A stretch of DNA of 64,000 bases from Roseimicrobium gellanilyticum (GTDB lineage Bacteria > Verrucomicrobiota > Verrucomicrobiia > Verrucomicrobiales > Verrucomicrobiaceae). The position numbers were made by a program, and so were the translations under genes. Shown one piece after another: positions 30,120-37,001 of this stretch (positions are counted from its first letter, which is position 1; each line of letters starts with the position of its first letter). The stretch lies in contig NZ_QNRR01000019.1 in assembly GCF_003315205.1 (NCBI RefSeq), positions 1 through 64,000 of the forward strand. Reading direction: 5' to 3'. Below the pieces are notes generated by a model, which worked only from the letters and a program-made list of their open reading frames with translations, was not told where the DNA came from and ran no database searches.

Positions 30120-31166
30120 TCACCCGCTTCCGCATACACTGTCCCCTTCCATCCACGCCGGAGGGATGAGAATCTGCCGGGGCACTTCGGGTACGCCGCG
30201 CTCGTGTTGCAGGAGTTGCGTGGCCACCAGATCCACGCCGGCGGCGGCGACTTCATCCCGACGCTGGTAGATGCCTGCGAGGCCTTTCATGCGGTGGGTC
30301 CAATCGTGCACCACGAGGCCGATGTCTTCTGGGATGCGCAGGCCCAGTTGCTTCAGCCAGTCGGGGACATAGGTGTCAAAGGAGATGAGCGCGTCGGGCT
30401 GGTGCGTCTTCATCCACTCCTTGAAGACGGAGGCGCACTTGCGCAGGTCGTTGTGCGGGAAGAGCAGGATGGGCACACGACTACTCTTCGGCATGCTCTG
30501 CTGGAAGAACAGCATGGCGCCGCTGTAGGCGTGCTCGGCGCGGTCATCCACCCAGCGCGTGACGGCGAGGCCGATGCGCTTGTACCCGCGCGCGGCGAGC
30601 TGCGTCGTGGCCATCTGCACGCCGAGCGTCATGTTCCCCGCAGCGCGATGCAGCGAGGGCTGCTTCAGGCCATAACCAAAGGTCACGGCAGCAAAGGGCG
30701 CGTAGTCCATCTGTGCGCACAGCATCTGCGAGGACTGCGGGGAGACAATCAGGCCCTCAATGCCCCGCGCCTGCAGCACCTTGCCCAGTCGTGCGGGCGT
30801 CATGCCATCCCGCCCCATCCAGAACTCCTCCGCGTAGTAGCCGTGCTTCTCGGCGCGATTGCGGATATCGCCAATGGATACATACTGATACGCTGTATCA
30901 TGCAGCGCATCCTGCGGCGTGCCCTCCCGCACCACGGCCAGCACGGCGCGCACCTTCGGAGCCTTCCGGCTGCGCACCATGGTCATCATGCGCGCGAGAT
31001 GCGGGTCCGGCTGGTACTTCAGCGCCCGCGCCGCCTGCATCACCTTCTTCTTCGCGGCCTCCGACACACGGGGTGAATTCCGCAGCACGCGGGACACGGT
31101 CATGGCAGACACGCCGGCGCGTGTGGCGATGTCTTGCAGGCTGACAGCGGCGTTGGCTGAGGACAT
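30120..31166 (-). CDS. LacI-family transcriptional regulator
   Basis: 348 residues. N-terminal DNA-binding domain with VSLQDIATRAGVSAMTVSRVLRN (split here from the following SPRVSEAAKKKVMQAA hinge region), then a periplasmic-binding-protein-like effector domain (GIEGLIVSPQSSQ, GYKRIGLAVTRW, PDALISFDTYVPDWLKQLGLRIPEDIGLVVHDW). It is divergent from the three-sialidase operon, with 519 bases between the starts containing a nested palindrome at 31556-31579. By analogy it should repress the sialidase genes and be released by a product of glycan breakdown; that is inference. Confidence 0.92.
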   Translation of the reverse strand: MSSANAAVSLQDIATRAGVSAMTVSRVLRNSPRVSEAAKKKVMQAARALKYQPDPHLARMMTMVRSRKAPKVRAVLAVVREGTPQDALHDTAYQYVSIGDIRNRAEKHGYYAEEFWMGRDGMTPARLGKVLQARGIEGLIVSPQSSQMLCAQMDYAPFAAVTFGYGLKQPSLHRAAGNMTLGVQMATTQLAARGYKRIGLAVTRWVDDRAEHAYSGAMLFFQQSMPKSSRVPILLFPHNDLRKCASVFKEWMKTHQPDALISFDTYVPDWLKQLGLRIPEDIGLVVHDWTHRMKGLAGIYQRRDEVAAAGVDLVATQLLQHERGVPEVPRQILIPPAWMEGDSVCGSG

Positions 31167-31190
31167 AGGGGCTAATTTAATCTGGAGCTA

Positions 31191-31470
31191 GATGCTCTGT
31201 CCCGGAGGGACAACGGCTGGTAGCCGGTCGGTGAAGCGAGTCTAGACGAGCGCAACCACCGGATCATGATGACAAAAGATGCTTCCGTCCCGGATGGGAC
31301 GGCGGAAGGTCGTCGCAGGGCCGATGAAGGTCCATTACTACGCTGCACCCTTTCCGGCGTGCCCTCCGGGACGCCATCACGTTCTCGTGGGAGTTCCGGT
31401 GGTTGCGGTCGCTGAGGCTCCCTCCACCGACCGGCTACCAGCCGCGCTCCCTCCGGGAGCAAGCTTCGAA
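31191..31470. repeat. 280-bp REP-like element, copy 1
   Basis: A long imperfect palindrome marked by GTCCCGGAGGGAC, GGTAGCCGGTCGGTGAAG, GTCCCGGATGGGACGG and CTCCCTCCGGGAGC. Its reverse complement matches 36643-36927 in order and spacing. It occupies more than half of the LacI/sialidase intergenic region. One minus frame is open across it, giving about 105 residues, but this is the repeat and not a gene. Confidence 0.85.
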
Positions 31471-31555
31471 CTGAGTAGGTGGCGCACATGAGGTGTTCTT
31501 TGTGTGAGGATTCAAGTCAGCGCCCACAGTCGCAGTGGGTCCAGCAGTGGCCATG

Positions 31556-34520: not shown

Positions 34521-37001
34521 ATGATGCTGCCCACGTCCACATCACGAAGCCTTGCCCTCCTGCTCGCGAGCCTGAGCCTGCTCTGCACTCCTGCGCCGCT
34601 CACCGCTGCGAATCCCGCACTGGTGTTCCCCGCGAAAGTGCCCGCGACGATCACGGAGGTGAATGCGCCGGTGTGGGTGGGCCGACCGCCCACGGACGCG
34701 GGTTTCGGCCTCGTGCGCCTCGTGAATGGTGAGATTCGCGCTTATGACTACGGCGACCAGGTGAGCATCCTGCTGCGTCATCAGCCGGACCATCTGCCAA
34801 AGAACTACATCGTGAGCCTGGACAACGGACTCACGTGGGACAGCAAGTCCGTAGCGCCGAATCACATGGCCGCGGATGCACGCAGCCCGGTGACGAATGA
34901 ATATGTGCGCCTCATCACCAAGGAAGACGGTGTGTATGCCATCCGCTCAAAGGGTGGCATGGATGGCCAGTGGAGCCAGCACCGTGTGTGGGAGACGAAG
35001 GTGCGCGGACCTGAGCTTGGACTCATCCGCCCTGCCGTCTTCATCCGCGAGGGGAAGCGCATCCTCGCGCCCTTCACCACCATGCGACGCTTCGAGCCGG
35101 ACTTCCTGAATCAGGTCGGCTCCTTCTATTCGGATGACGAAGGTGCGACGTGGCAGCGCTCCAATCTCGTCGCCGCGCCTCCGCACAAGCCGAATGGCCG
35201 CGACAAGTCCGTGCGCTGGCAAAACGAAGCCTACGAGCCCACCTTCGTGGAACTGAAGGATGGACGCGTGTGGATGCTATTCCGCACCTCGCAGGACACG
35301 CACTACGAGTCCTTCTCCGAGAATGGCGGCGCTACGTGGAGCGAGCCGCAGCCCTCGCCCTTCTACGGCACACTCACCATGCCCACCATCCGCCGCCTGC
35401 GCGATGGCAAGCTGCTCTTCCTCTGGAACAACACGACTCCCCTCCCCGAGTTCGTGAAGAACGCCGCCACTGCGCCCTATCTTGGTCGCGCCAATGACGG
35501 CCAGGGCGAGGACATGTTCACCAATCGCGATGTCATCCACGCCGCCATTTCAAGTGACGATGGAAAAACATGGCACGGCTTCCGCGAGCTCTACCTGAAT
35601 CCCGCACGCAATGACCGTCGCTATGCGGAGACCGGCGGCATCGACCGCAGCGTGCATCAATCGCAAGCAGTCGAGGTGGCGGAGGGCCGTGTACTCGTCG
35701 CACTGGGCCAGCACTGGCTGCACCGCTCCCTGGTGCTCTTCAATCCCGCCTGGCTGGAGGAGAGGGAACGTAGCAACAGCTTCGCGAACGACCTCGATGA
35801 CTGGTCCGTGCAGGGCTTCCTGCGCGGCATCCGCGGCCACTGCGCGCTGAACCGTTTCGAATCCTGCGCCCTCGTGCCGCATCCCGACAGCGCGGAGAAG
35901 CAAGCCCTGCTGGTGAAACGTGTGGCGGATGGCAATGCCATGTACGCGAACGCAGGCGCCGTGTGGAACTTCCCTGCCGCACCCGCAGGCACCTTCGAGG
36001 TCCGTATTCGCCTGCAGGAGAAGTCCGCCGGTGCGCGCCTCTCGCTCATTGACCGCTGGCTGAATCCCACCGACCCCACCGCGCACACGCTCGCCATGGG
36101 CAGTCTGCAGATCAAAGGCGATGGCACGACCAATGTGGAAGGCGTGAAGCTCACGCCCGGCCAGTGGCACACGCTCACCTTCAAGTGGGCCGAGTGCGCC
36201 AAGGGTACAAAGTGCGAGGTGCAGGTGGATGGCCAGCCCGCCTCCGGCACACTGAACTTCGGACGCGAATCCCGCCACGGCATCAGCTACGCCCATTTCC
36301 AGTCCGCCGCAGATGAAGGCGACGAGGGCTTCCTCATCGAGTCCGTGCGCGCCACCGTGACACCTCCGCCTGCACCTCCTGCAGCGGAGCCAGCACCCGC
36401 ACCTGCAGCAACTCCTGCGCCTGCAGGTGCACCAGCGCCATCTCCTCCCACCGGCACACCTGCACCTGCCACACAGCCCGCTCCTGCTCCAACGCCCACT
36501 CCAACTACTCCCCCTGCGTCCACCACGCCATCTCCATCCCCAGTTCCTGCAACAAAGCCTGCGCCCACACCCGCTCCTTCCACAAGTTCCAACACCAGCA
36601 AGTCTCCAGGCAAACGCGACTCAGCGTCGGCATCTCCTCGCAGCTTCGAAGTTGCTCCCGGAGGGAGCGTGGATGGTAGCCGGTGGTGCCGGGAGCCTCA
36701 GCGACCACAACCACCGGATCTCGCATGGAAACTTCATCGCGTCCCGGAGGGCACGCCGGAAGGGATGTCGCCATGGCCGTGCGACGTGAAGCCTGACTGC
36801 CACGCCTTTTCCGCCGTCCCATCCGGGACGGAACATCTCTTAGTCGACATGATCCGGTGGTTGCAGTCGCCAAGGCTCCTTTCACCGACCGGCTACCATC
36901 CGATGTCCCTCCGGGACAAGAGCATCTGCCACGAATTCGCATCGATTACGACTCCCGCGGCGAAGCCCGCTCCCGCACCCGCCCCTTCCACCACCTCCTG
37001 A
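34521..37001 (+). CDS. Secreted sialidase-family protein with repeat-derived C-terminal region
   Basis: 826 residues. Signal peptide (LALLLASLSLLCTPAPLTAA), BNR/sialidase domain (about 35-430) with Asp-boxes SLDNGLTW, SDDEGATW, SENGGATW and SSDDGKTW, then a LamG-like domain (about 470-615, from SAGARLSLIDRWL to FLIESVRATV). A long Pro/Ala/Thr linker follows. Residues about 708-802 are translated from the 285-bp REP-like element 36643-36927, and a short Pro/Ala tail resumes after it. The element leaves the frame open and its length is a multiple of three. The enzyme's catalytic part is unaffected. ATG 34521 or 34524 is the start. Confidence 0.85.
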   Translation: MMLPTSTSRSLALLLASLSLLCTPAPLTAANPALVFPAKVPATITEVNAPVWVGRPPTDAGFGLVRLVNGEIRAYDYGDQVSILLRHQPDHLPKNYIVSLDNGLTWDSKSVAPNHMAADARSPVTNEYVRLITKEDGVYAIRSKGGMDGQWSQHRVWETKVRGPELGLIRPAVFIREGKRILAPFTTMRRFEPDFLNQVGSFYSDDEGATWQRSNLVAAPPHKPNGRDKSVRWQNEAYEPTFVELKDGRVWMLFRTSQDTHYESFSENGGATWSEPQPSPFYGTLTMPTIRRLRDGKLLFLWNNTTPLPEFVKNAATAPYLGRANDGQGEDMFTNRDVIHAAISSDDGKTWHGFRELYLNPARNDRRYAETGGIDRSVHQSQAVEVAEGRVLVALGQHWLHRSLVLFNPAWLEERERSNSFANDLDDWSVQGFLRGIRGHCALNRFESCALVPHPDSAEKQALLVKRVADGNAMYANAGAVWNFPAAPAGTFEVRIRLQEKSAGARLSLIDRWLNPTDPTAHTLAMGSLQIKGDGTTNVEGVKLTPGQWHTLTFKWAECAKGTKCEVQVDGQPASGTLNFGRESRHGISYAHFQSAADEGDEGFLIESVRATVTPPPAPPAAEPAPAPAATPAPAGAPAPSPPTGTPAPATQPAPAPTPTPTTPPASTTPSPSPVPATKPAPTPAPSTSSNTSKSPGKRDSASASPRSFEVAPGGSVDGSRWCREPQRPQPPDLAWKLHRVPEGTPEGMSPWPCDVKPDCHAFSAVPSGTEHLLVDMIRWLQSPRLLSPTGYHPMSLRDKSICHEFASITTPAAKPAPAPAPSTTS
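36643..36927. repeat. REP-like element, copy 2, in frame inside a sialidase gene
   Basis: Matches the reverse complement of 31191-31470: TTGCTCCCGGAGGGAGCG, GGTAGCCGGT, GCGTCCCGGAGGGCACGCC, CCGCCGTCCCATCCGGGACG, CGACCGGCTACCA and GTCCCTCCGGGACA in the same order. The stretch is 285 bases (95 codons). The reading frame crosses it without a stop. Confidence 0.9.

Follow-up and report, generated by a model that had tools for sequence, protein, structure and literature searches.

Background

The entry of a palindromic repeat into the reading frame of a protein gene has precedents in Rickettsia and among intragenic REPs, including those of Verrucomicrobia. The closest described systems are the GTAG-tagged REP dimers, or REPINs, and the REPtrons (Di Nocera 2013, PMC3733652; Bertels and Rainey 2011, PMC3116915). 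REPs are found inside the genes of several species, GTAG cases being most numerous in the Verrucomicrobium O. terrae, and the larger intragenic clusters encode 43 to 82 residues (PMC3733652). Insertions at the C-terminus may be neutral (Di Nocera, PMC3733652). The published TIRs are mostly unrelated to GTAG repeats (PMC3733652). The Rickettsia palindromic elements (RPEs), which are 105 to 146 bp long, have been found in 19 reading frames (PMC2229807).

The locus described here lies in a stretch of 64,000 nucleotides of Roseimicrobium gellanilyticum (positions 1 to 64,000 of contig NZ_QNRR01000019.1), referred to below as the window. In it, a mobile repeat is read in frame near the end of a sialidase-like gene, and a second copy has altered the start of a regulator gene nearby.

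The sialidase gene and its insert

The host gene is a single open frame whose product matches the Pfam family BNR_2 (E=1.5e-18). As the sequence-only reading had stated, the frame spans the insert without a break, and the insert is read in frame as residues 708-802 (36642-36926). The features of the gene and the insert are as follows.

34521-37001, + strand: ORF of the BNR/sialidase-like secreted protein that hosts the insert, 826 codons in one open frame
36613-36956, + strand: widest span over which similarity to other copies is detectable, comprising the core and degenerate outer MITE arms
36656-36916, + strand: core of the inserted element, 261 nt, in which GTAG-tagged hairpin repeats form an inverted dimer
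36676-36717, + strand: left REP-like unit, GTAG followed by the stem CCGGTGGT/ACCACCGG, a local hairpin
36762-36808, + strand: variable spacer between the halves, where the autonomous C9 locus carries its transposase gene
36853-36896, - strand: REP-like unit of the right half, inverted (CCGGTGGT ... ACCGGCTAC)
36957-37001, + strand: remnant of the native C-terminal Pro/Ala tail with its stop, common to the sister orthologue (PAPSTTS*)

The insert sits within a low-complexity Pro/Ala tail, 24 codons upstream of the stop, and the next gene follows 30 nt downstream of the sialidase. The Pro/Ala linker had been described as stopping at the left boundary and resuming at the right. The pattern already fades some 17 residues upstream of that left boundary (SSNTSKSPGKRDSASASPRS), and both ends of the insertion fall in low-complexity sequence. 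Searches of protein families (Pfam), structures (PDB) and phage proteins (PHROG) gave no match for the 96 insert-derived residues, and a scan of the genome's own contigs gave no relatives of the sialidase. The insert should add about 95 to 115 residues without a recognisable fold to the sialidase tail; EPQRPQPPDLAWK is an example of a tryptic peptide from residues 708-802.

Architecture of the element

Aligned to the reverse complement of 31190-31470, positions 36640-36932 are 81% identical over 283 nt. The local alignment score is 178.5, compared to a best score of 35 in 200 shuffles, which upholds the reported match to the reversed element nearby. Similarity to other copies reaches beyond the extent first given, 36643-36927, to roughly 36613-36956. 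The insert is a long imperfect palindrome, with inverted arms at 36656-36720 and 36851-36916 (81-86% complementary) and an inner inverted pair at 36740-36761/36809-36830, and it is predicted to fold as a strong long hairpin (z=-10.4). Each half is a repeat of about 110 nt with three hairpins, and the spacer between the halves is 47 nt in this copy. An 8-bp stem begins directly 3' of the GTAG, of which the TAG is invariant across the aligned copies and the full tetranucleotide is present in 18 of 19. In most copies the core measures 256-261 bp; with outer ends included, the element reaches about 366 bp.

The Rfam matches to the element (MIR918, RsmV) score below the gathering cut-offs and were rejected as an identity; the palindrome alone is probably behind them. 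A covariation analysis (term -0.33) is uninformative since most pairs are invariant.

Copies and their distribution

The R. gellanilyticum genome (7.93 Mb in 32 contigs) holds about 20 loci of this repeat family, with about 13 full and 7 partial copies. In the one sister genome that served as the same-genus comparison (G001), there are 29 matches, many of which are one locus seen on both strands. Across the rest of the bacterial family the matches are weaker and mostly of half length. The element is dispersed and mostly extragenic and, judging from the copies inspected and the empty sister sites, mobile on an evolutionary scale. In one copy (L100, 8855-9113, right flank), the outer arm of a subfamily-A copy stands in tandem duplicate beside the core.

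The sequence-only reading had proposed a search for the same element in frame in other genes. By the test used, an ORF with coding-like codon usage spanning the element, the sialidase copy is the only one wholly inside such a frame; about 29 loci from the two genomes of the genus were inspected. Three other copies with long open frames were considered and rejected: those at C9:33018 and C20:57220 would be N-terminal extensions of genes whose real start is probably downstream, and at the sister copy 7385705 no ORF that covers the element is coding-like. At 32 further loci in two other genera, none was flagged in frame by a weaker codon-score test, a zero that carries little weight, as this survey would miss low-complexity linkers like that of the sialidase. 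The insert peptide, searched in 57 relatives, gave matches that are weak or coincide with copies of the repeat. In-frame entry is a single event and not a habit of the family.

Empty sites in the sister species

The sister species has a sialidase orthologue with an open frame of 725 aa, 93% identical in the catalytic region, and this gene does not contain the element, which was the outcome that the first reading had looked to an orthologue to provide. In the DNA alignment, its Pro/Ala tail runs uninterrupted to the identical ...PAPSTTS stop. In another genus, the sialidase orthologues stop near residue 616 and lack a tail altogether.

The second copy in the window tells a similar story at the other end of a gene.

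31164-31529, - strand: second insertion of the same repeat family, about 366 bp when its outer inverted ends are counted, with a clean empty site in the sister
30120-31166, - strand: LacI-type regulator whose first codons were lost to the second insertion, with its start ATG at the element edge

In place of the roughly 366 bp at 31164-31529, the sister shows continuous sequence, and because of this empty site the outer ends of this copy can be assigned to the inserted DNA. The sister regulator begins MATAGPSVNATVSLQ, the window version MSSANAAVSLQ; about nine original codons have been replaced, the old ATG lies at 31554-31552, and stop codons separate the present gene from the old start. Only one of the fetched loci is occupied in both species. 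By these alignments, both window copies are lineage-specific insertions, because the sister species has the element at neither site.

The link to Y1 (HUH) transposases

An autonomous locus at C9:47846-48548 contains a likely transposase for the repeats. Here, a 148-aa Y1 transposase (PF01797, E=1.6e-22, HUH motif DHVH) lies between two inverted half-elements. It passes the NF033573 IS200 equivalog model (61.5 bits vs a cut-off of 55) and fails the NF047646 model of the REP-associated tyrosine transposases, or RAYTs (24.5 bits vs a cut-off of 80). Relatives of this protein are present in 48 of 59 genomes of the bacterial family, and matches to a profile of the half-element flank both sides of 18 of 30 Y1 loci of the clade, mostly in the expected inverted orientation, compared to none of four other Y1 genes in the same genome. 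Because half-elements flank related Y1 loci, the element is to be seen as the terminal repeats of a Y1 transposon minus its gene. It is a REP-dimer/TIR-dimer that derives from a Y1 "REPtron/TIRtron" and is itself non-autonomous.

Other IS200-like Y1 genes of this genome (L070, L071, L073 and L074) each have their own, differing inverted multi-hairpin repeats, which suggests several independent transposase-repeat pairs. The sister genome keeps full copies of the element, yet its nearest relative of the cognate Y1 protein is only 42% identical. These copies may be stranded or mobilised by a different enzyme, and because they persist beside so distant a relative, the cognate Y1 protein is no more than a candidate mobiliser.

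Origin of the insert

The explanation that we consider highly probable as a whole is a non-autonomous, Y1-derived mobile element that was inserted after the species split, is read through and has been retained as nearly harmless. The insert would consist of two inverted GTAG repeats of about 110 nt with three hairpins each. These would be the terminal repeats that characterise an IS200-like Y1 (HUH) transposon family of this bacterial family, the Verrucomicrobiaceae, with a 47-nt spacer in place of the transposase, and the insert was probably carried within a second, DDE-type miniature element. It would have entered the C-terminal Pro/Ala tail of the sialidase after the split from the sister species, in a phase and orientation free of stop codons, so that the ribosome should read through it, and would have been kept as it did little harm. 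Mobilisation in trans by a Y1 or DDE transposase, translation in vivo and neutrality are the parts that we infer.

The strongest competitor, which we regard as quite possible while leaning against it, is that an IS transposase acting in trans moved the whole unit, from outer end to outer end, as a DDE-type MITE, with the GTAG-REP dimer as passive cargo and Y1 uninvolved. The core is surrounded in many copies by outer inverted ends of one of two types, GAGCATTTT with TA flanks (subfamily A) or CATAGGCGC..AACTTAA. Core-less short MITEs exist with both types of end, and one of them, L173 (G001:C1:7199808-7199921), has clear inverted ends and is flanked by a duplication of 10-11 bp (GCACTCCTGCC). 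The empty site of the second copy (31164-31529), whose inverted ends and flanking duplication are degenerate, places the outer ends within the inserted DNA and argues in the same direction. However, these ends are hardly recognisable at the sialidase copy, several copies (e.g., C9 and the half-elements) have no clear outer ends of these types, and the searches made found no autonomous DDE element with them. The C2 copy has a 597-aa gene next to it that might have been a transposase, but this candidate was rejected, being a GAF/SpoIIE/HATPase regulator. Besides L173, L129 and L132 are short DDE-like MITEs without a REP core.

In the composites, the core occupies the loop of the GTCCC/GGGAC hairpin of the MITE, and each of its arms is extended so as to form a palindrome by itself. 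This hints that the core was inserted or copied in an unusual way. In several loci of the two species, a given type of outer end goes with a given core variant. One could tentatively picture a two-layer element that either transposase may spread, in which a GTAG-REP dimer of Y1 type occupies the central hairpin of DDE-type MITEs, although we think this rather unlikely. If true, host genes would occasionally gain from it a long peptide in frame or a new start codon.

Tolerated or selected

The sequence-only reading had left the choice between a tolerated and a selected insertion. Tolerance fits the data. Over the 21 full copies, open frames number 13 of 126, in line with the 9.75% expected from shuffling. 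The length of the insert, a multiple of three, had been offered as evidence, and it proves to be a weak one, since the core has such a length in 12 of these 21 copies, which are mainly intergenic. The sialidase copy differs from the family consensus at 26, 19 and 25 sites in codon positions 1, 2 and 3, and because these departures ignore codon position, there is no sign of constraint at the level of the protein. Codon usage in the insert is non-coding-like, with a mean log-odds of -0.13 vs 0.30 for residues 1-618; that of the native linker is likewise low (-0.43). Taken together with a dispensable tail, in which even a frameshift would cost little, the insert looks tolerated, and selection for it is unsupported. 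The prior chance of staying in frame is only a few percent, and because of this there is room for weak selection against disruption of the frame.

It is improbable that the insert has been co-opted, with the 95 residues themselves selected or an mRNA hairpin tuning the stability or translation of the sialidase and the next gene. The frame has been kept though about 90% of the frames in the family are closed, the predicted hairpin is very strong, and REPs at the 3' ends of genes are often held to act on mRNA (PMC3733652). Yet there is no codon-position bias, no fold or family was found for the segment, the sister does without it, and it lies in a low-complexity tail.

An ordinary protein domain or repeat mimicked by the DNA resemblance is scarcely credible: a few other copies (31190, L095, L096, L103 and L112) have this frame open as well, but by codon score these are intergenic, the repeat is found on both DNA strands, and no orthologue has the segment, nor does any family or structure match it. 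Very improbable, too, is an assembly error that placed a repeat copy in the gene, a worry raised from the start and natural for a repetitive element in a draft genome of 32 contigs, as the insert sequence is unique there (the closest copy is 81% identical), the frame is intact, and both flanks and the downstream gene agree with the sister locus.

Significance and comparison with known systems

The repeats of this family can be tied to a likely transposase, and filled and empty sites are available in a sister pair at two loci separated by 5 kb, one at the C-terminus of a sialidase and the other at the N-terminus of a regulator. Because of these filled and empty sites, the cost of in-frame entry of a repeat is testable. 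There is a caution here for annotators as well, since about 95 residues of this sialidase are probably a translated transposon.

Like the GTAG REP dimers and REPINs, the element has a GTAG beside a palindromic stem and inverted dimers that form a long hairpin, and, as in the REPtrons, the same repeat flanks a Y1 HUH transposase; it is also mostly extragenic and dispersed. It differs from GTAG REPs in its longer unit (about 110 nt, three hairpins) and moderate copy number, and the roughly 95 residues that it encodes compare with 43 to 82 in the larger REP clusters. Unlike RAYT systems, its transposase is scored as IS200-type, under the NCBIfam cut-off for REP transposases. It resembles the TIRtron/TIRYT systems (PMC3733652), with long inverted repeats near both ends of the Y1 gene and moderately abundant TIR dimers elsewhere, whereas the TIR here, unlike most of the published ones, includes a GTAG hairpin.

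The analogy to the Rickettsia elements, drawn in the first reading, is sound in principle, as in both cases a palindromic repeat is translated in frame within a protein gene and tolerated. It does not extend to the element itself, which is a longer core of 261 bp built on GTAG-tagged Y1 hairpin repeats, with one in-frame case. Bacterial MITEs such as ERIC, Correia/NEMIS and YPAL (PMC2229807) share the inverted ends, the target duplication in some copies and the occasional in-frame fusions; unlike them, the element here has a REP dimer within a MITE hairpin, two element types nested in one another. The length of the insert and this nesting are what make the case somewhat unusual.
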